Source: a virus
IMG/VR virus record: IMGVR_UViG_3300046753_000522
Span: 37,941-101,940 of that record
Strand: one strand, 5' to 3'
Length of the DNA: 64,000 nucleotides
The translations under genes and the position numbers were made by a program. Of this stretch, positions 54,916-63,006 are shown piece after piece (within the stretch, counting starts at the first letter, position 1; each line of letters starts with the position of its first letter). The notes below the pieces were generated by a model. It was not told where the DNA came from, did not search any database, and saw only the letters and a list, made by a program, of their open reading frames with translations.

Positions 54916-55326
54916 TTACTCCTGGGATTTTAATTCGGTAGCAGTATTTATACTCTCTTTAGACTTGGTTATCTGATCTTCGTAATAAACGATTATCGCC
55001 TGCTGTTGCTTTATATATCGTTTGATATCGGCAAGGTTCAGAGAGAGGTTTTCGTAGTGTGGGACAGATATAGCAAAGAACACAAGGTCGCCGTTATCGT
55101 TCTCAAAGTTCTTTTCAAACTCATCAATGTTGTCTGTAGTAACAGTGTACCACTTCACGTCCGACATATTGATCGGACGAGGGGGTCTTTGCTGAGGTAT
55201 GTTAGGTGCTTTGTAGACTACCTGAGTTACAACAACCTCTTCAGGTTTACTGAGGAGACTGCACCCCGTCGTCAGTAGGAGCACCACTGACAGACTCAAT
55301 AGCGTCAAATGCTTTTTTAGTTCCAT
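54916..55326 (-). CDS. Outer-membrane spanin lipoprotein (Rz1-like)
   Basis: The 136-residue protein has a lipoprotein signal (KKHLTLLSLSVVLLLTTGC, lipobox LTTGC with the lipidated Cys at about 22), followed by a Pro-rich stretch (NIPQQRPPRPINM) as in Rz1 proteins, and a coiled helix near the C-terminus. Its first 80 bp lie inside the 3' end of the Rz-like gene in another frame, the classic nested spanin arrangement. It would link with the inner-membrane partner and fuse membranes during lysis. It is longer than lambda Rz1. Confidence 0.72.
   Translation of the reverse strand: MELKKHLTLLSLSVVLLLTTGCSLLSKPEEVVVTQVVYKAPNIPQQRPPRPINMSDVKWYTVTTDNIDEFEKNFENDNGDLVFFAISVPHYENLSLNLADIKRYIKQQQAIIVYYEDQITKSKESINTATELKSQE
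54945..54952 (-). promoter_or_regulatory. T4-type late promoter TATAAATA
   Basis: An exact minus-strand box lies 35 bp before the EF-hand protein start (54910), inside the end of the Rz1-like gene. Confidence 0.7.
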
Positions 55327-55642
55327 TGTTTACTCTCGTCTCGATTAATCCAGGTTTCTTGAGCGCCAACCTCGTGAGGTCATGCTTACCAAACACTTCA
55401 ATGAGTCGGTTACGACTCTCTTCGGATTCTTCTAATCTCTCCTGAAGTTCCTCGTTCAACTCAGCATTGATTTCCGCTTGGTTCTCCATGCTATCGATAG
55501 TCGCCAAGTTCTGCGCGTTCGCGAGTTTCAACTCTGCGTTGTTCGACTGTAGTTGTGCAATACGTGCTTGGGTGTCGGTGTAATAGAACCAACCGCCACC
55601 TGCGATCGAACCTGCTAACAGTAGGACGAGTAGTATAGGCAT
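55247..55642 (-). CDS. Inner-membrane spanin (Rz-like)
   Basis: The 131-residue protein starts with an uncleaved membrane anchor (PILLVLLLAGSIAGGGWFYY), followed by a long periplasmic coiled coil (about 25-85: RIAQLQSNNAELKLANAQNL, LNEELQERLEESEESRNRLI), then LTRLALKKPGLIETRVN. This is the i-spanin layout. The C-terminal 80 bp overlap the Rz1-like lipoprotein gene in a different frame. Its start overlaps the preceding stop by one base. Confidence 0.75.
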   Translation of the reverse strand: MPILLVLLLAGSIAGGGWFYYTDTQARIAQLQSNNAELKLANAQNLATIDSMENQAEINAELNEELQERLEESEESRNRLIEVFGKHDLTRLALKKPGLIETRVNNGTKKAFDAIESVSGAPTDDGVQSPQ

Positions 55643-56109
55643 TATTTCCTCACTAATCTATAGTCTGTCGCACCCTTTCTCGAGTCAACCTCGTAGTTAT
55701 ATCCCATCGACGGTGCGAATCTTTTTACCATTCTTTTGTAGAGTTTCTCTCTTGAACTTTTAACATTCGGTTTGTCGCCCATCTCAATCTCAAACCATTC
55801 GGGTTTGACCGCACTAAAACTCATCTCTTGCGGTTTCTCTGACTTTGTGAAGTCTCTAATGATGTTGATGACCGTTGCGAATATTCGCATAGCATCACCC
55901 TCACCAGTCATATCCTGCCTCATGTTCCTTTCGAAACTGACATTCCAGACCGACTCAGAGTCAGAGATCTCATCTTCTTTGAAGATCACATCAATTTCAG
56001 TCTTATCATCTGGAACAAACCGATACACAAACCGACCCTTCATAATCTTTTGCTTTGTGAACCTATAGGGTCGGTTGAACGATTCTCTCAACTCAAAAAA
56101 GTCTATCAT
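55642..56109 (-). CDS. Conserved phage protein, unknown
   Basis: The 155-residue protein has VWNVSFERNMRQDMTGEGDA and MRIFATVINIIRDFTKSEKP (about 54-93), then SSREKLYKRMVKRFAPSMGY and a final strand YRLVRK. The TGxGDAxRIFATV motif is familiar from many T4-like and other marine phages as a hypothetical protein. No catalytic motif. It is joined by one-base overlaps to the mosaic protein and the Rz-like gene. Confidence 0.65.
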   Translation of the reverse strand: MIDFFELRESFNRPYRFTKQKIMKGRFVYRFVPDDKTEIDVIFKEDEISDSESVWNVSFERNMRQDMTGEGDAMRIFATVINIIRDFTKSEKPQEMSFSAVKPEWFEIEMGDKPNVKSSREKLYKRMVKRFAPSMGYNYEVDSRKGATDYRLVRK

Positions 56110-57935
56110 TACTTTGCTCTTTTACGAAGTTCCTTCGTGACCATGATCTGAAACTTTCTCTTTTCTTGGGGTTTCTGCAAACTATCAAATCGCTTGAGCA
56201 GTTTATCAATCATTGCCTTGGGCAGTCGAGCAGTCCGACCTTTGGGGGATACGATAATGTCGTGATTGCCCTTGAGGTCTTGTGCCTTACGGAGTTGCAT
56301 GACGATGTTGCGGTCACCTGCCTCCATAGAACCCATGTGCCTTTTACCAGTACTGGTCTTGGTTGTGCTCTGCTTCTTCGGCGCTGCTTTCTTCGCCCTT
56401 GCTGCACCACGCAACTCTTCCTGCGCACGTGCTTTCAACTTACGCAACTCAACAGAGTTACGAGGCAACTGACCCTTGGGGGCGAGTTCCTTCATCTTAT
56501 TCAAAAGTTTCTGCGAAGTTGCTTCTTCTATTGACTCTTTCTGTGCAGCACTTCCACCGACGTTGTATCGAGACTTAGTAGTCTTGCCAGTCTTAATATT
56601 TCGAGACACCTTATAACCGTTACCAGAAGTGGTAGTAACTGACTGCCCACTTGTGCCACCTGGTGCTCCCTTTCGCCCACTCGAGCGCGAGGAGGAAGAA
56701 GATGAAGAAGATGAAGAGGATGAAGATGAAGAAGATGAAGACGATCTCATTGGATTCTTTCTGACCATTAGAAACTCATCAACGGTTTCTTCCATAATCC
56801 TACGACCATCTGTCTTGTGGACTGTCGCCTTATGCCCAACTCGATTTGTCTTGTTGATTCTATCGGCGTACTTCTTTGCCCCTTGTGAGGTCGGGTGGTA
56901 CTGCTTAATCATCTTCTTGCCACCAGGTTTGGTGACAACGACGAGGTGACCAGGACGGTCAGTGTGATCGCGAGGGTCCATAGATTCGCCAACATCACGC
57001 TTATGGTCGTGATCTAATTCTTTTTTGTGGGCAGGTTGCATCCTAACCCGCTTCTTGCCTGTTCTGGGGTCAGTTACCATGACGGGTTTCTTTGCAGAAG
57101 AATCAGTTTCAATTTCCTCTTGGAACTGCTTGCCCTTGTGCTTGACGTATCCCTTCTTTTCTTTCTTCTTTCTGTCTGCCATCACGTGCGCTTTGTTGTA
57201 CTCGCGCGCATGCTTTGCAACGAGGTTATTGGTCTTTTCTGATACGTGATACCCTTTATCGTCACAGTGGTTACAACCCTCACCCTCACACTTGGGGCAT
57301 TCAACCTTCTTTTCTACCTTCATAGTGGCATATTTCTTACCGCCTGTCGGTGAAGGGATAAACTCTTGAGAAGATGGTGCCATTATTGCTGTGGACTCAG
57401 GGACGCAGTTGGGGACCATCTTATCTCCCTTCTTCTTCATGCCCTGTTTCCTATAACCAGTCCAGCATTCATCAGCATTCTCTTCATTCTTACTTGCCCT
57501 TTTCTCCCGCTCCTTTCGCATCATGTCAGCAACTGCACCCAACTTCTTCTGATCAGAAGAGGACATACCCGCTCGTTTTTTCTTGTCACGAATTGCTGCT
57601 TGCGAGTCGGCATATGCGTCGGTAGATTCTTTCTTCGCGCCTTTCTTTGCATCCATATAAGCAGCAATTGCCATTGACTTTCGGTCTTCGCCAGACTTAC
57701 CTTTAAATTGAGGGGCATCAGATTTCTTAAAGTCGTCAATCCACTTTGCGATAGGGTCTTTTGAACTGAGGGGCATTGTTTTCTCCTTAATGTCGTTCCT
57801 TTTTTGCGAATGCACGACCTTACTACCCGAAGCAATCTTACCGTCTTTCTTTGATTCGTTGGGTGTTAGTTTCTTTGCGTATTTAGTTGAGGCATCTGTG
57901 CCCCATTGGTGCTTGCTTGGGTCATACTTACTCAT
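56109..57935 (-). CDS. Large mosaic basic protein with zinc motifs and polyserine tract
   Basis: The 608-residue protein is started at 57935, one base after the DUF6321 stop; the longer frame would overlap that gene. It strings together small modules: PIAKWIDDFKKSDAPQFKGK (about 60-79), ECWTGYRKQGMKKKGDKMVP with NC (about 155), a DnaJ-like ribbon CPKCEGEGCNHCDDKGYH (about 213-230), HLVVVTKPGGKKMIKQYHPT (about 317-336), a 20-residue serine run (about 396-416) and a basic C-terminal domain. Modules are separated by Ser/Glu/Lys linkers such as PEST, GES and KES. A head-internal or scaffold-like protein processed into pieces is one idea; nothing proves it. Confidence 0.6.
   Translation of the reverse strand: MSKYDPSKHQWGTDASTKYAKKLTPNESKKDGKIASGSKVVHSQKRNDIKEKTMPLSSKDPIAKWIDDFKKSDAPQFKGKSGEDRKSMAIAAYMDAKKGAKKESTDAYADSQAAIRDKKKRAGMSSSDQKKLGAVADMMRKEREKRASKNEENADECWTGYRKQGMKKKGDKMVPNCVPESTAIMAPSSQEFIPSPTGGKKYATMKVEKKVECPKCEGEGCNHCDDKGYHVSEKTNNLVAKHAREYNKAHVMADRKKKEKKGYVKHKGKQFQEEIETDSSAKKPVMVTDPRTGKKRVRMQPAHKKELDHDHKRDVGESMDPRDHTDRPGHLVVVTKPGGKKMIKQYHPTSQGAKKYADRINKTNRVGHKATVHKTDGRRIMEETVDEFLMVRKNPMRSSSSSSSSSSSSSSSSSSSRSSGRKGAPGGTSGQSVTTTSGNGYKVSRNIKTGKTTKSRYNVGGSAAQKESIEEATSQKLLNKMKELAPKGQLPRNSVELRKLKARAQEELRGAARAKKAAPKKQSTTKTSTGKRHMGSMEAGDRNIVMQLRKAQDLKGNHDIIVSPKGRTARLPKAMIDKLLKRFDSLQKPQEKRKFQIMVTKELRKRAK
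56688..56748. repeat. Low-complexity triplet tract coding polyserine
   Basis: Plus-strand GAA/GAT/GAG triplets run for about 60 bp and code a nearly pure Ser run on the minus strand. Triplet slippage would change its length without breaking the frame. Confidence 0.85.
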
Positions 57936-57936
57936 A

Positions 57937-58191
57937 TCAGCAGTTCCATCTCCGACGTGCTGCTTTGCCTCTCTCGCCAGTCCAACTGCGCGAACGAGCA
58001 CAAAAGGATTTGCGCCTGCCTGCTGCCTTGCCATTTGGATCAAGTTTGGAAGGTGGAGTTGTCACAGCGGTCTTGACACCTGCTGCCTTTGCACCTTTGC
58101 GAGTTAGACCAGCACCGTCTTCCACAGGTCTCTTATGACCCGACTTGACCCCGCCCTCAGATACCTGTAGAAATTCGATAAACCGCTTCAT
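57937..58191 (-). CDS. DUF6321 family protein
   Basis: The 84-residue protein starts at 58191 (MKRFIEFLQVSEGG), with GGGGAG seven bases upstream; ATGs at 58218 and 58203 are less well placed. It matches DUF6321 by pattern: EDGAGLTRKGAKAAGVKTAV, then TTPPSKLDPNGKAAGRRKSF and CARSR, ending ARRRWNC. It is short but has both ends of the family. It lies first below the 58253 late promoter and one base ahead of the mosaic protein. Confidence 0.72.
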   Translation of the reverse strand: MKRFIEFLQVSEGGVKSGHKRPVEDGAGLTRKGAKAAGVKTAVTTPPSKLDPNGKAAGRRKSFCARSRSWTGERGKAARRRWNC

Positions 58192-58217
58192 TGCACTCCC
58201 CATATTTCTGTCGGGCA

Positions 58218-58253
58218 TAAAAAAAGACCTATCAAGTTGCCCTAATAGGTCTT
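58218..58253 (-). terminator. Rho-independent terminator overlapping a late promoter
   Basis: The minus strand reads AAGACCTAT, a 12-base loop, ATAGGTCTT, then seven T. The 9-bp perfect stem and U run follow the EF-hand/holin-like gene (stop at 58272). It closes the secreted/membrane island. The 5' arm shares its first base with the last base of the TATAAATA box at 58253-58260. Confidence 0.9.
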
Positions 58254-58260
58254 ATTTATA
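58253..58260 (-). promoter_or_regulatory. Late promoter TATAAATA nested at a terminator
   Basis: An exact minus-strand box lies 62 bp before the DUF6321 start. With the T4 rule (start six bases below the box) the message begins near 58247, inside the terminator's 5' arm, so its own RNA cannot form the full hairpin. Confidence 0.78.
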
Positions 58261-58271
58261 CATGTAAAAAC

Positions 58272-58598
58272 TTACTTCTTACCAGACCACGCCTGCGCTC
58301 CGAAGAATGCTGCCACGATACCAGCAACAGAAACAAAGTAGACTGACGCCATTGACCCGAGGATCTCTGCTGCTTGGTGCAGATTCATTATCTCGGTCGC
58401 CATAACGGTCGCTGGATAGAGCAACATACCAGACAGGGCGAACCATGTCATCTTACGTTGCGCGTCTCGCATTGCATCTTGGTCTTCAAGTTCCTTTCTC
58501 TTGAACTCCATATACATCTTATGCTCTTCCTCGCTGACCTTTCGGTCACCGTTGGTATCTGCGGGATGGAATCCTGCCTTTTCGATTTCTTCTGCCAT
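58272..58598 (-). CDS. Two-helix membrane protein with EF-hand-like loop (holin-like)
   Basis: The 108-residue protein has a cytoplasmic N-terminus with DTNGDRKVSEEE (about 14-25, an EF-hand-like loop), a charged helix, and two membrane segments (MTWFALSGMLLYPATVMATE, about 50-69; ASVYFVSVAGIVAAFFGAQA, about 83-102), ending WSGKK. The size, two segments and basic tail fit class II holins, and it is the best holin candidate in the window; this is inference. It is the last gene before the terminator at 58218. Confidence 0.62.
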   Translation of the reverse strand: MAEEIEKAGFHPADTNGDRKVSEEEHKMYMEFKRKELEDQDAMRDAQRKMTWFALSGMLLYPATVMATEIMNLHQAAEILGSMASVYFVSVAGIVAAFFGAQAWSGKK

Positions 58599-58606
58599 GT
58601 TACCCC

Positions 58607-58873
58607 CTATTTGGTTTTAATAATGTCATAACCAACAGGATCAACTGTTTTGATATGCACAGCATGACCGTCAACAGTCTTCAACTTAAACTCAGTTTGC
58701 GATTTAACCTTTACAGTTCTACACGTGTAGTGCTTTGGGTTGAAGTGTACTGTCTCCGAACCATCCTCGTTCTGCACCTTACTGGCAGGAAAATAAATGG
58801 TGACCTCAAACTCATCGATGAACCAAGCGAGGATCCAGTCCCAGATTCTTTTCCAAATACTTTTCTTCTTCAT
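58607..58873 (-). CDS. Small protein with Trp-rich amphipathic N-terminus
   Basis: The 88-residue protein opens KKKSIWKRIWDWILAWFIDE, a cationic Trp/Ile segment that probably lies at or in the inner membrane, followed by a small beta domain (FEVTIYFPASKVQ, HFNPKHYTCRTVKVKSQTEF, KLKTVDGHAVHIKTVDPVGY). I do not recognise a family. It overlaps the coiled-coil membrane gene by 4 bp within the secreted/membrane island. Confidence 0.58.
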   Translation of the reverse strand: MKKKSIWKRIWDWILAWFIDEFEVTIYFPASKVQNEDGSETVHFNPKHYTCRTVKVKSQTEFKLKTVDGHAVHIKTVDPVGYDIIKTK

Positions 58874-59325
58874 GATAGTGGATTGTCCAGTACTTTCTGA
58901 ATTTTATCTTCGAGGTTATCCTCGATCTCTTTGATCTTACGATCTGTTTCGCTGACAAGGGCATCTCTCTTCGTTTCAAATCTTTCGTCTGCCTTATCAA
59001 TCATTGTTCGGACTTTGTCCTCTGACTCGCGCACCATATCTTCGATACGGTCTGCCTGTGCCTCAACCGAGAGTATATCATCCCTCAGATCGGACTTAAT
59101 ATCTCTCGTGTAATCGATCGCCTCGTCGAGTTTCGTTTCGATGACATCATTCCTTGCTTCAATCTCTCCGACGTCGATGTTCTGGATAATCTCTTTCATA
59201 TCCATGTAATCTTTGTAAAACTCGAATGCACCCCAAGTCGCCCCACCAAGTGTAGTGAGCGCAGTGAGCAAGATCATCATCTTGCCTCCTTTGAATGTCA
59301 TACCGCCAAATTCTACTTCTGCCAT
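58870..59325 (-). CDS. Membrane-anchored coiled-coil protein
   Basis: The 151-residue protein has one membrane segment (MMILLTALTTLGGATWGAFE, about 16-35), then an unbroken charged coiled coil to the end (about 45-150: EIEARNDVIETKLDEAIDYT, VEAQADRIEDMVRESEDKVR, RKIKEIEDNLEDKIQKVLDN). Orientation is uncertain: the short N-terminus is weakly charged. It could be a tether or spacer in the envelope. Overlaps of 1 and 4 bp tie it into the island operon. Confidence 0.62.
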   Translation of the reverse strand: MAEVEFGGMTFKGGKMMILLTALTTLGGATWGAFEFYKDYMDMKEIIQNIDVGEIEARNDVIETKLDEAIDYTRDIKSDLRDDILSVEAQADRIEDMVRESEDKVRTMIDKADERFETKRDALVSETDRKIKEIEDNLEDKIQKVLDNPLS

Positions 59326-59534
59326 TACTTGTCCATCTCTCTGATTGCCAATTCCCTAATATTTTCCTCTGCCTCTGCCAAGTCATCCTGTAGTATCGCG
59401 ACCTGTGTCTGTAGCAGGTGTAACTCTTCCAGTGTCTGGAAGTAGGTTGCCACAAATGTGAACAGTAAAGACAAGAAGGCGACCAAACTCTTAACCGACA
59501 TTCTAATTTCAGTTTCTTCGTTCAAAAAACTCAT
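59325..59534 (-). CDS. Small single-pass membrane protein with coiled tail
   Basis: The 69-residue protein (start 59534, MSFLNEETEIRMSVKSLVAF) has a membrane segment LVAFLSLLFTFVATYFQTLE and a short coiled coil LLQTQVAILQDDLAEAEENI. An in-frame ATG at 59564 would translate through a 7-bp GC hairpin and has poor spacing to a ribosome site, so I prefer the internal ATG. Function is unknown. It belongs to the island operon. Confidence 0.58.
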   Translation of the reverse strand: MSFLNEETEIRMSVKSLVAFLSLLFTFVATYFQTLEELHLLQTQVAILQDDLAEAEENIRELAIREMDK

Positions 59535-59543
59535 ATCATTTAA

Positions 59544-59562
59544 GGGGGAGCAGAACTCCCCC
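59544..59562 (-). promoter_or_regulatory. GC-rich hairpin between two island genes
   Basis: The minus strand reads GGGGGAG-TTCTG-CTCCCCC, a perfect 7-bp stem 8 bp below the preceding stop. A T6 run comes only 16 bases later, so it may attenuate transcription or shield the message end. Confidence 0.5.
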
Positions 59563-59570
59563 ATTCCCCC

Positions 59571-59729
59571 TTATTCTGCTTTCCAAAGAGTCCACGCACC
59601 GTAGGCACAGAGCGCCATTGCTGCGAGTTTACCGAGCGGACCGAGCAGCAGCACGGATGCTCCAACCCCGAGACATACTGCCCCATCGAGTGAAGTCCTT
59701 TCTGCCATTCTTGCTTTTAACCAGTCCAT
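59571..59729 (-). CDS. 52-residue hydrophobic membrane protein
   Basis: This short gene reads MDWLKARMAERTSLDGAVCL, GVGASVLLLGPLGKLAAMAL, CAYGAWTLWKAE. An amphipathic start is followed by two short hydrophobic stretches (about 17-31 and 33-48) split by GPLGK, which could form a membrane hairpin. AGGAG lies seven bases ahead of the start, and it ends before the GC hairpin. Family unknown. It fits the all-membrane character of this island. Confidence 0.62.
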   Translation of the reverse strand: MDWLKARMAERTSLDGAVCLGVGASVLLLGPLGKLAAMALCAYGAWTLWKAE

Positions 59730-59730
59730 T

Positions 59731-60327
59731 TTATTCTCCTATTTTACAGTTACGTTTGCGGTGACCATTCCACGCCACAAATCCACCAATACGCAATGCC
59801 CAATATGCCAAATAGTTTAAGAAATGGAAACCATTTTGCTCTATGTTGATGTCTCTAAAGATTATGTCCATATCTTTTTGAGTTTTCCATCCACAGTTTT
59901 CTTTCCAGTCTCCTTTGTTCTTCGTGTACAGGGTTTCATATTTGTATCCGTAGTCGTGGACAAGTCCCCCCACTAATAGGACTCCAACAGGAGACAACCA
60001 TGATGCCAAGAACTTCGGCACTGATGCTCCGTCGAATACAAATCCTTTCGGTATGACGTAGTTTACGCCACCGATTGTGTAATGCCAATCTTTTACAATC
60101 TCCCATGTTCGACCGCCGAGTAACCACATTTTGACTGCACCCCAGAATCCCTTACCTGCGGTTTCTATCCTAACAGGTTTCATATGGGGCATTTCTTTGT
60201 ATGTGAACCCGAGCAACTCTTTGTCGTTATCGACTCCAAACAAGTTGACCACAAACCCAACAAGGATTAGGATCGCGGCAACGGTGAACATCCAAAATTG
60301 CATTGCCAAGTTAAACAGTGTTTCCAT
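59731..60327 (-). CDS. Membrane-anchored DUF1353 protein
   Basis: The 198-residue protein has an N-terminal membrane segment (LAMQFWMFTVAAILILVGFV, about 6-25) and a DUF1353-like domain: YVIPKGFVFDGASVPKFLAS and VGVLLVGGLVHDYGYKY (about 91-130), with the conserved GFxxDGASxP and HDxxY. A second hydrophobic helix may lie near WALRIGGFVAW. DUF1353 proteins are common in phages and have no settled activity. It abuts its upstream neighbour without a gap. Confidence 0.72.
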   Translation of the reverse strand: METLFNLAMQFWMFTVAAILILVGFVVNLFGVDNDKELLGFTYKEMPHMKPVRIETAGKGFWGAVKMWLLGGRTWEIVKDWHYTIGGVNYVIPKGFVFDGASVPKFLASWLSPVGVLLVGGLVHDYGYKYETLYTKNKGDWKENCGWKTQKDMDIIFRDINIEQNGFHFLNYLAYWALRIGGFVAWNGHRKRNCKIGE

Positions 60328-60768
60328 TTATTCGTACTCCTCGAACTGCATTTTTCTGAGGTTGGCGATCTCTGCCTCCAACTTCTCTACTTCTAATCTC
60401 TTCTTTCTCAACTCCAGTTGATACAGGGCATCACAATTCAGTCTCTTCTTCGGAGCACCAATAGGAATAATGATACGACCGTAAACGCCAACGTCCCGTA
60501 TAAACTGGTCGTTGTTGTACCTCTGTGCCATATAAGGATCTTCCTGCGATAAACGGTAGAGTGGATCCTCTTGGTTCAGTATACCAACAACGCCAAACTC
60601 GACATTAGTTGACGAACCGATTGCCATGGAGCATTCTGTATCTCCTGCTCGTATCCTATCATTCTGAAAACTCTGTTGTGCCTGAGGTATCGACATGTTC
60701 AATGACGAAGACTGCCCCCATACAAGAGAGGGTACAAAACAAAGAATGATCAATAGTAGTTTTTTCAT
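60328..60768 (-). CDS. Secreted protein with C-terminal coiled helix
   Basis: The 146-residue protein has a Sec signal peptide (MKKLLLIILCFVPSLVWGQ), a mature N-terminal region with AGDTECSMAIGSSTNVEFGV and VGILNQEDPLYRLS, VGVYGRIIIPIGAP in the middle, and a charged helix at the end (LYQLELRKKRLEVEKLEAEI). Two cysteines could pair. It would act in the periplasm or beyond. I do not recognise a named family. It overlaps the following signal-peptide gene by 4 bp. Confidence 0.65.
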   Translation of the reverse strand: MKKLLLIILCFVPSLVWGQSSSLNMSIPQAQQSFQNDRIRAGDTECSMAIGSSTNVEFGVVGILNQEDPLYRLSQEDPYMAQRYNNDQFIRDVGVYGRIIIPIGAPKKRLNCDALYQLELRKKRLEVEKLEAEIANLRKMQFEEYE

Positions 60769-61148
60769 TTCGCCTTTGAGCAGATACGGGAAGCAACTGC
60801 TGCCCTACTCCGCTGTTCCTTCAACAATTTCGATACCGAGCAGATATAAACCGCCCTTTCAATGTCCTTCTTCCTAACGTAAACCTCAACCGTTTTCTTC
60901 TTCAAGTGTGGTACTTTCATCACTTTTTCTGATGTAACGAACGGTACGGGTTCCATATCAGCATCGAGTACTTGTACACCATACCACTCGACGTCTTTCC
61001 TGGAGTTAAACAACTCCATCTTTACGGACACAACTCCATCAATGTACGAACTTTCCCACTTCGGATAAGTCGGCGTCCACTGGTGGGCAATTGCTGGTCC
61101 CGAAAATATTAACAACGAAACCAGCAGTTTCTCGCATAACGAAAGCAT
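60765..61148 (-). CDS. Secreted Ig-like protein, pilus-chaperone-like
   Basis: The 127-residue protein starts at 61148, five bases after the preceding stop, giving a signal peptide (LSLCEKLLVSLLIFSGPAIA). The mature part is one beta-sandwich-like domain: YIDGVVSVKMELFNSRKDVE, WYGVQVLDADMEPVPFVTSE, KVMKVPHLKKKTVEVYVRKK, and ends RAAVASRICSKAK. The order of strands and the xxxRICxK end recall a single domain of periplasmic pilus chaperones, but the second domain is missing. The similarity is weak and by eye. Confidence 0.55.
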   Translation of the reverse strand: MLSLCEKLLVSLLIFSGPAIAHQWTPTYPKWESSYIDGVVSVKMELFNSRKDVEWYGVQVLDADMEPVPFVTSEKVMKVPHLKKKTVEVYVRKKDIERAVYICSVSKLLKEQRSRAAVASRICSKAK

Positions 61149-61153
61149 AGAAA

Positions 61154-61651
61154 TTACTTCGCTATGCAATCTGCTTGAACAATTGACCGATAAGTGCCTG
61201 ACGGGAATGCCCTATCAAACCCATATGCAACGTCTGAAGAAACGGAGAACCAAGTGCTACCTGCAACAGTCAAGTCATACTCCGTCTTGTTGTCATAGGT
61301 CACCTTGCCTGTCTCGTATCCAGACATTGTGGTTTCCGATACTTCTTCTACTGTTGTTGAACCTGTCCACGCAGTGTTGTCAATCAGTGTTGGACTCTCA
61401 CTGAACGACATTGGGTGAGCAATCACTGCCTTATAGTAGTTTGCCTGTAGCACATCAAACCGAACGATGGGTTCTACCCCACCATCAGCAGCATCAGTAC
61501 TGAGAGTATCTGGTGTTGAGTTGCCATAGACACCTTCTGTGTCAGCAATGATCTGACACTTTGATTGGACTTGACCGACAATTTGAACTTCTTCCGCATA
61601 AGATGCGCAGGTGAAGATGCCAGCGATGAATCCGATGATTAACTTCTTCAT
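61154..61651 (-). CDS. Secreted beta-rich protein, pilin/SCPU-like
   Basis: The 165-residue protein starts at 61651 (MKKLIIGFIAGIFTCASYAE, a clean signal peptide). The mature part has a cysteine near each end (SKCQIIADTEGVYGN and VQADCIAK), as in DUF4402/spore-coat-U type pilus subunits that close their fold with a disulfide. Between them lie alternating beta strands (VEPIVRFDVLQANYYKAVIA, SGYETGKVTYDNKTEYDLTV, AGSTWFSVSSDVAYGFD). An ATG 19 codons earlier would run into the upstream gene. A self-assembling surface subunit is one idea; it is unproven. Confidence 0.58.
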   Translation of the reverse strand: MKKLIIGFIAGIFTCASYAEEVQIVGQVQSKCQIIADTEGVYGNSTPDTLSTDAADGGVEPIVRFDVLQANYYKAVIAHPMSFSESPTLIDNTAWTGSTTVEEVSETTMSGYETGKVTYDNKTEYDLTVAGSTWFSVSSDVAYGFDRAFPSGTYRSIVQADCIAK

Positions 61652-61652
61652 A

Positions 61653-62525
61653 TTACTTTCCCTCGTATTGTTGATCAACCATTTGGTTGTGTAGTGCATC
61701 GTTCGCATAATTCAATCGCCGTAACTGTACATTGTCGGGCAATGTCGCATCCTTTAACTCAATCCTCTCCTCATACCCAGGATCAGGAATAACTCTTTCG
61801 TATGATGCTGGCACAAAGTTGAGTGCCAGCATCTGCGCGTGTAACATCTCTGCTGGTCCTTGTAGTTCGTTCAACGAAAACGTGCCCAGCATTTTCTCAA
61901 GGTCAGTCAGTACCAACTTCTTCTTCTCTTTGTCCTTTATCCTCTCGAAGTCGCGACGCTCTTGATCATCGTCACGGAATACCTGCTCACGGTCCATCTG
62001 GTCTTGGAACGATTCCCCCGCCAGATCTAAATTTGTGTCGTCAGTCTCTGGTATCACTGGTGAGTATCCTGGACAAGTTGGATTGTTCTGCGGGTTAATA
62101 CACTTGTCATCATAGCGATAGGTGTATAACACAGAGGGGTCGACAACCTGCCCTTCTCCCTCTACGACGATAGAACCGTCTCCCCAGTACTCAACGGGAA
62201 TGTAATCAACTGGTACGATCTTATTGATTGTATTCCCTGGAAGTCCAGTCCAGTCGTCGACCTCACGGAAGATATAACCGCCATCGATCGGATTCTCGTT
62301 CTGCACGGAAACGACCATGGGGTCGCTGGGGTCTTTGATGGTTGTGTACTGATACACAACTCCGTTGACCGCCAGTCCCGTGTATTGGGGAATTACATTC
62401 TGCATTACCCACTGCTGCCCACTTTGGGCAGCATTACCACTGGATCCGTAGATTACTTCAGAGGAGGAGTAAGAGCAGTAACCCAGCAAGAGCACCGCCA
62501 CCAGCAGCAGTTTTTTCTCCAGCAT
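61653..62525 (-). CDS. Secreted protein, unknown, with charged helical C-terminal half
   Basis: The 290-residue protein has a signal peptide (MLEKKLLLVAVLLLGYCSYS), a beta-rich first half (WVMQNVIPQYTGLAVNGVVY, FREVDDWTGLPGNTINKIVP), a Cys pair in DDKCINPQNNPTCPGY (about 134-149), and a highly charged helix (FQDQMDREQVFRDDDQERRD, FERIKDKEKKKLVLTDLEKM, about 177-216). No family is recognised. Its first 68 bp overlap the 3' end of the upstream gene in another frame, so its signal peptide is coded over that gene's hydrophobic tail. Confidence 0.6.
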   Translation of the reverse strand: MLEKKLLLVAVLLLGYCSYSSSEVIYGSSGNAAQSGQQWVMQNVIPQYTGLAVNGVVYQYTTIKDPSDPMVVSVQNENPIDGGYIFREVDDWTGLPGNTINKIVPVDYIPVEYWGDGSIVVEGEGQVVDPSVLYTYRYDDKCINPQNNPTCPGYSPVIPETDDTNLDLAGESFQDQMDREQVFRDDDQERRDFERIKDKEKKKLVLTDLEKMLGTFSLNELQGPAEMLHAQMLALNFVPASYERVIPDPGYEERIELKDATLPDNVQLRRLNYANDALHNQMVDQQYEGK

Positions 62526-63006
62526 CTAAACCCTCCTCTTCGGGTTGTTCTAATTCTTCTCTCTGCCATGCTGCCTTTGCAGCGTCACCAATCATACCGT
62601 CTTTGGGGCAGGGAGTTCCTGCGTTCATCATTGCGTCGAATACTCTCTTGTCTTGGCACATCATCGACACTGCTGCCACTTTCATGCCCATATCATAGAG
62701 AGTTTTAGAATTCTTGAGACGCTCACAGTTTTCGTCTGTGAACTGAGTCCCCGTCGAGATACCAAGTATCTGAGTTTGCACTGCACCCGCAACTCCAAAC
62801 GTACAAAGGTCGGAGTTCGACGTGTTGATAGTGGGGGATATAGCGGAAGCAGGCGGTGACTTCAATTCAGTCTCCGTCTTTCCGTTTGTTGTAATCGTAC
62901 TGGTCGTTACAGACTCTGAACGAATTAGGTTGGGGTCTACTGGATCTTCTTGTCCAATTGCAATTGTACTAAAGAAGATTGCAGCAAGTGCAAGCATCCT
63001 TTTCAT
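62458..63006 (-). CDS. Secreted protein with GGG plus poly-Leu C-terminal tail
   Basis: The 182-residue protein has a signal peptide (MKRMLALAAIFFSTIAIGQ), a Ser/Thr-rich stretch (IRSESVTTSTITTNGKTETE), a middle with DLCTFGVAGAVQTQILGIST and four Cys (about 72, 95, 122, 138), an acidic linker (ELEQPEEEGLDAGEK) and a last segment TAAGGGALAGLLLLLLL. A glycine run followed by a hydrophobic end resembles GlyGly-CTERM sorting signals but lacks the final basic residues. It is the first gene of the secreted/membrane island; a GAGGT ribosome site precedes it. Confidence 0.62.
   Translation of the reverse strand: MKRMLALAAIFFSTIAIGQEDPVDPNLIRSESVTTSTITTNGKTETELKSPPASAISPTINTSNSDLCTFGVAGAVQTQILGISTGTQFTDENCERLKNSKTLYDMGMKVAAVSMMCQDKRVFDAMMNAGTPCPKDGMIGDAAKAAWQREELEQPEEEGLDAGEKTAAGGGALAGLLLLLLL

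Follow-up and report, generated by a model that had tools for sequence, protein, structure and literature searches.

Layout and conservation of the gene run

The window analysed here comprises the final 64 kb of the 101,940-base virus record IMGVR_UViG_3300046753_000522 in IMG/VR. It carries T4-type baseplate genes, a spanin pair and a lysozyme. Eleven consecutive open reading frames (ORFs), g1 to g11, run along the minus strand from 63006 down to 58272, as placed by the initial annotation (Table 1). They are almost contiguous, with gaps or overlaps of a few bases. The exception is the 68-nucleotide (nt) overlap of g1 and g2 at 62458-62525, which was retained in relatives with a median of 71 nt. 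These shared bases encode the poly-Leu tail of g1 as well as the signal peptide of g2. Signal-peptide-like N-termini were found on the first five proteins, g1 to g5; the initial annotation had recognised a secreted set but counted four Sec signal peptides. Its DUF1353 protein and its terminator were both recovered. The former is g6 (PF07087, E 9.8e-11, cut-off passed) and the latter is the strongest terminator-like site on the minus strand, a 13-bp hairpin followed by a T run.

The run had been regarded as one eleven-gene system, a view that did not hold. The conserved unit is a cassette of six genes, g1-g2-g3-g4-g5 and g9. The layout in relatives was obtained from IMG/VR scans with g1, g2, g4 and g6, followed by profile searches of the contigs. 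Genes g1 to g5 occurred in order, and g9 followed directly or one to three genes later. The cleanest synteny test used 80 IMG/VR loci picked by g4 alone, with loci of sufficient sequence as denominators. There g3 was present in 78/78, g2 in 70/70, g1 in 68/68, g5 in 76/76 and g9 in 65/65 loci, and gene order was consistent in 80/80; the synteny that the initial annotation proposed to check was thus strong. The DUF1353 gene g6 was present in just 6/60 of these loci, and g8 and g10 were found only in near-identical relatives. Altogether, g6, g7, g8, g10 and g11 were variable in presence, and the genes flanking the cassette differed widely among contigs. The g9 profile also picks up inner spanins and g9 was therefore counted only inside the cassette, where the C-terminal NPL motif was found in 65/68 non-redundant sets. 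Divergence was correlated from gene to gene across g1 to g5 (pairwise r 0.63-0.80), with a lower correlation for g9.

An alignment-based scan detected g4 relatives in at least 585 IMG/VR stretches; a single-sequence scan with g4 gave no matches. The cassette's role, whatever it may be, is thus common in marine viruses. Relatives of g1 were encoded by at least 393 IMG/VR stretches and were also present in Pelagibacter podoviruses, Mosig, CRP-810 and JWAlpha. A near-DNA search against phage records returned no match. Candidate bacterial homologues were found on six contigs in metagenome bins, all carrying the whole or a cut cassette; they were not taken as host genes because their neighbours were phage-like.

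DUF1353 in g6 was the sole family hit above noise in Pfam, NCBIfam and PADLOC, and the cassette proteins themselves had none. Pfam assigned no family to any member of g3 or g4, profiles of g1 to g5 gave nothing meaningful against PDB sequences, and the PHROG families of the cassette are all of unknown function. In line with the initial annotation, neither Pfam, NCBIfam and PADLOC nor the papers searched yielded a described system of the same composition.

A signal-peptide-like start was retained in 67-68/68 non-redundant sets for each of g1 to g5, as called by a simple rule-based test, not SignalP, with a background of 19% of other proteins. Such starts in nearly all relatives argue against a virion-related role, in which the exported proteins would decorate the virion after lysis or would be normal virion components whose N-termini mislead. 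Assembly of T4-like virions takes place in the cytoplasm, and of the JWAlpha virion bands identified by peptide fingerprinting none was reported to be its g1 relative, a weak test (PMC3915230). Despite a late promoter and structural-gene neighbours in some phages, a virion-related role appears very improbable.

Table 1. Coordinates of the genes and signals in and near the run (positions in the window; pLDDT, predicted local distance difference test)
Feature	Position	Strand	Description
g1	62458..63006	-	Signal peptide, Ser/Thr stretch of low complexity and conserved Cys-rich domain; C-terminal tail short and hydrophobic; phrog_20531 (function unknown)
g2	61653..62525	-	Signal peptide, conserved two-Cys N-terminal domain, coiled-coil-like middle, conserved C-terminal box LAQQLLHxxMVxxQY
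g3	61154..61651	-	Predicted secreted two-Cys beta-sandwich (pLDDT 87), pilin-like N-terminal strand motif VxIxGxVxxxC; phrog_25895
g4	60765..61148	-	Predicted secreted single-domain PapD/FimC-like chaperone fold (pLDDT 92), invariant Cys103/Cys123; phrog_25455
g5	60328..60768	-	Secreted; beta segment GVYxxIxIPIGAPxxRLxC, C-terminal coiled coil; phrog_37374
g6	59731..60327	-	Membrane-anchored DUF1353 protein, predicted phospholipase A2; accessory, outside the conserved cassette
g7	59571..59729	-	52 amino acids, two hydrophobic segments; in marine T4-like phages located next to DUF1353 and spanins; only its size and context suggest a holin
g8	59325..59564	-	Small protein with one transmembrane segment and a coiled coil; lineage-specific
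g9	58870..59325	-	Membrane segment at the N-terminus, long coiled coil, conserved NPL motif at the C-terminus; sixth cassette member
g10	58607..58873	-	Small basic protein; lineage-specific
g11	58272..58598	-	EF-hand-like stretch, then C-terminal hydrophobic region; patchy in relatives
Rho-independent terminator hairpin	58224..58253	-	13-bp hairpin and T run; closes the eleven-gene run
TATAAATA late box	58253..58260	-	Directly behind g11, overlaps the terminator hairpin
Inner spanin gene (55247-55642) and outer spanin gene (54916-55326)	54916..55642	-	Downstream of the eleven-gene run

Predicted folds of g3 and g4 and the exchangeable parts of the cassette

Secreted beta-sandwich folds, expected by the initial annotation, were seen in the models of g3 and g4. 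The g4 protein, proposed there as a single-domain pilus chaperone, was modelled as such from an alignment of 45 sequences (pLDDT 92). Its best Foldseek matches were the pilus chaperones SafB (E 8e-5), PapD, SfaE and FimC (E 8e-5 to 1e-3). VIA-align gave a Z of 10.5 with FimC/DraB over 98-99 residues, placed on FimC residues 1-114 and above the usual noise. A few other PapD-superfamily or Ig-like domains (CsxA, MSP domains) scored like the chaperones, so this is a fold assignment and not functional proof. Cys103 and Cys123 were invariant in 45/45 sequences and are sited on the last two strands, a placement that we take to be reminiscent of FGL-type chaperones. Judged from the model, a first-domain PapD/FimC-like chaperone fold is well supported for g4.

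The suggestion that g3 is a two-Cys pilin/SCPU-type subunit was partly supported by its pilin-like sandwich (pLDDT 87) and strand motif, though the fold match was weak. The best Foldseek matches were pilins, namely CfaB, FimF and the PapG pilin domain, at E 2e-3 and weaker and with low TM-scores. Among the top VIA rows only sortase-type pilins were present and no classical chaperone-usher pilin, which was not taken as exclusion. In the model, the residues before Cys32 are unpaired. The N-terminal pattern reads hydrophobic-x-hydrophobic-x-G-x-hydrophobic-(3 or 4)-Cys and was detected in 91/115 g3 proteins vs 24/4237 other proteins. Nine E. coli K-12 pilins have the same arrangement, and hhalign aligned the motif stretch of g3 with their donor-strand region. 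With a mean identity of 57%, g3 is among the more conserved members. Its pilin nature is plausible from the predicted structure. The N-terminal half of a g3 consensus matched ice-binding proteins alone, which was judged to be chance.

In other phages, the protein encoded between g1 and g9 is a different one: it is secreted, 460-640 amino acids long and has a C-terminal box matching that of g2. Examples are Pelagibacter phage HTVC115P gp53 and contigs L029, L036 and L039. HTVC023P, Mosig and CRP-810 carry a g1 relative, then a secreted protein and then a g9-like coiled coil. The N-terminal part of g2 is swapped for unrelated beta-rich domains in other phages. These arrangements suggest that g1, the g2 C-terminus and g9 may form a constant platform, with the N-terminal part of g2 and g3 to g5 as exchangeable components. 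A lipoprotein nature of g2 was rejected, as a lipobox was present in only 18/49 sequences and a signal-peptidase-I-like SYS site was conserved instead. Roseobacter phage CRP-810 encodes an 86-amino-acid lipoprotein-like protein beside g1 (L206:5654-5911) which matches part of the g1 domain and is perhaps an outer-membrane paralogue. The same phage has a protein annotated as lysozyme, OR671924.1 gp51 (L206:7258-7680), whose sequence is that of a g9-type coiled-coil membrane protein.

Late promoters and lysis-gene neighbours

The late box TATAAATA occurred ten times in the window, always on the minus (coding) strand, vs 1.3 expected copies. No copy lies between 58261 and 64000, which agrees with the absence of an internal box reported initially. 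The conclusion drawn from it, a non-late unit, was contradicted by the relatives. Of 81 non-redundant loci, 38 had the box in the 250 nt that precede g1, and 34/38 of these boxes lay 29-53 nt ahead of the start codon; one was on the antisense strand. Dinucleotide shuffles gave a mean of 1.67 and a maximum of 6 boxes upstream of g1 vs the 38 observed. None of the 81 loci had a late box before g2 or g5. In an independent set of 39 loci not used before, the box preceded g1 in 12/39, always at -61 to -33. At family level, these promoter sequences indicate that the cassette is a late unit with a T4-type late box just upstream of its first gene. In the phage of the window, the cassette is probably read through from an upstream late promoter. 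Contig L122 overlaps the window end (2327/2328 bases identical) and extends upstream.

Because the box at 58253-58260 follows g11 directly and overlaps the terminator hairpin, it belongs to the gene that comes next. From T4 promoter geometry, the late transcript of that gene would begin within the hairpin. The upstream unit terminates, and the following one starts, in a shared stretch of about 35 bases (58224-58260). The ORF at 56109-58043, downstream of the terminator, contains a long serine run. Its start overlaps another frame at 57937-58218, suggesting a frameshift or two genes.

Late timing weakens the initial idea of a superinfection barrier and leaves the ideas of a surface structure and of lysis control standing. 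A complex that covers or jams the receptor, so that other phages or progeny avoid the doomed cell and its debris, would fit the secreted surface-type folds and the exchange of the g2 N-terminal part for unrelated domains. Exclusion, however, is normally early, and the conservation of g3 is unlike that of a host-specific adhesin. The PADLOC defence and exclusion models gave only weak coiled-coil matches of g9, none above noise. Receptor masking is quite improbable on this evidence.

The neighbourhood of the cassette includes candidate lysis genes. In g6, H124, D125 and D154 were invariant in 65 homologues and are the counterparts of the DUF1353 His-Asp and Asp catalytic residues. Phospholipase A2 activity has been shown for the DUF1353 of one bacterial protein, TtaP (PMC11525133). 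The g6 protein resembles TtaP in the Pfam domain above cut-off and in the invariant His-Asp/Asp residues, and differs by an added N-terminal membrane anchor and its marine-phage origin. By sequence it is most likely a membrane-anchored phospholipase A2. The label 'tail assembly chaperone' given to DUF1353 in PHROGs and RefSeq looks wrong, because the family has demonstrated phospholipase activity. In 30/64 non-redundant marine T4-like loci, g6 was no more than five genes from an outer-spanin gene. A class-3 lipase (PF01764, E 6.7e-20) occupies the DUF1353 place downstream of the cassette in several lineages, for example at L164:12611-13390 and in L210-L212; two unrelated lipid-cleaving enzymes share one slot. 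In 7/46 non-redundant cassettes, a DUF1353 or class-3 lipase gene followed on the same strand at a distance of no more than 3 kb, and 0/45 had one upstream. These genes look like lysis accessories placed beside the cassette and separate from it. A predicted phage phospholipase A2 beside spanins could alter the view of outer-membrane rupture.

These neighbours bear on a lysis role, in which a late envelope-disrupting complex would act with spanins and phospholipase to break the outer membrane or its wall links at burst. Such a role is consistent with late timing, with secreted and membrane-anchored coiled-coil proteins and with the g9 layout, which resembles an inner spanin. The downstream bias of DUF1353 and lipase genes points the same way, as do the adjacency of DUF1353 to spanins in other phages and of lysozyme to g1, the latter in some clades only. 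Against it, the phage of the window is already equipped with a pair of spanins and a lysozyme, and six conserved genes with a chaperone/pilin pair exceed known lysis needs. The cassette was mostly distant from lysozyme, which lay within 6 kb in 7/18 cases, near the expectation from contig sizes by a hand estimate. The GTA_holin_3TM family was detected in 2/40 records. Constant adjacency to endolysin, holin or spanin genes, a mark of spanin and lysis cassettes, was not observed for g1 to g5 with g9. A lysis accessory is an unlikely explanation, if a realistic one.

Proposed envelope complex and known systems

The comparative sequence data indicate a genuine, conserved and late cassette whose products go to the envelope. 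The favoured interpretation is a late, usher-less chaperone/pilin-like complex of six genes in the host envelope, to which we assign a probability of roughly 0.42. A bolder formulation is somewhat unlikely: that many lytic marine phages use six proteins of their own to build, as infection nears its end, a pilus-like envelope structure of a new class that needs no usher, with a one-domain PapD-type chaperone, a pilin-type subunit and an inner-membrane platform.

Beyond the g4 fold and the plausible g3 pilin, we infer the following mechanism. In the periplasm of the dying cell, g4 would lend a strand to the pilin-like g3 and stabilise it, and the N-terminal strand motif of g3 would complete a neighbouring subunit. 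With its long coiled coil, g9 may serve as inner-membrane anchor and part of a platform, joined by g1 with its Cys-rich domain and hydrophobic tail and by g2 and g5 with their coiled coils. This platform would need no usher to hold or display g3 across the envelope. What results could be a pilus-like structure or a display complex, located on or in the cell envelope late in infection, with a function like that of phage-encoded curli. The putative lipid-cleaving g6 would belong to the lysis set as a separate accessory.

Several observations weigh against this interpretation. The g1 leader of the window itself is without a late box, and the nearest box, in contig L122, is separated from g1 by 2.3 kb and precedes other genes on the same strand. 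With its 127 amino acids, g4 reaches no further than the last strand of domain one, so that the second Ig-like chaperone domain is missing. It also lacks the invariant arginine found near the start of E. coli chaperones, and its profile had no sequence similarity to FimC relatives or five K-12 chaperones. For g3, no Foldseek E was below 1e-3, and the best VIA Z values of 7-8 belonged to assorted Ig-like sandwiches. The hhalign match to pilins covered the signal peptide and motif only, with a probability of 41%, and the Cys pair spans the domain ends, unlike the pair of K-12 pilins. An usher (PF00577) was found in 0/40 phage records, many of them fragments, a result that concerns phage-encoded ushers.

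In favour of the interpretation, CsgG was present in 6/15 g1-less T4-like records vs 0/38 g1-bearing ones (Fisher p 2e-4, kinship ignored, most records fragments). Neither PF03783 nor PF10614 (CsgG/CsgF) was detected in the 38 g1-bearing records; both were detected in Melnitz and HTVC008M. Cassette and curli never occurred in the same record among those compared. This contrast is a lead only, because phylogeny and contig completeness were uncontrolled.

If the proposed complex exists, lytic phages build a dedicated envelope structure in cells about to be killed, using a chaperone and subunit of a type previously known in the pili of bacteria. It would then be a second surface-fibre-like module of marine T4-like phages besides curli.

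Among known systems, spanin complexes (Rz/Rz1) share with the cassette the inner-spanin layout seen in g9 and late expression, and a true spanin pair is near in the window. The cassette differs in its six proteins, in that no outer-membrane lipoprotein partner was recognised and in its separation from the real spanin genes.

Chaperone-usher pili (FimC/PapD, FimA/FimG) are alike in the adjacent genes for a secreted beta-sandwich subunit and a PapD-like domain, and in the donor-strand-like motif before the first Cys of g3. The cassette departs from them by having no usher and one chaperone domain rather than two. Its g4 is without sequence similarity to their chaperones and its g3 without the penultimate Tyr, and it is carried by lytic phages and apparently expressed late.

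Curli genes (type VIII secretion) are carried by pelagimyophages and some podoviruses of the HTVC023P type, where sibling capture, superinfection defence and lysis control are debated as their role (PMC7029224, PMC9599517, PMC9004378). The phage curli module is absent from the host (PMC7029224, PMC9599517, PMC9004378). In HTVC008M a late box precedes the start codon of csgF by 13 nt; in Melnitz none stands directly before csgF. The cassette differs from curli in its folds and has no CsgG/CsgF homologue. Like curli, it is a multi-gene, co-transferred and secreted module of surface-fibre type, shared by marine T4-like and podo-type phages.

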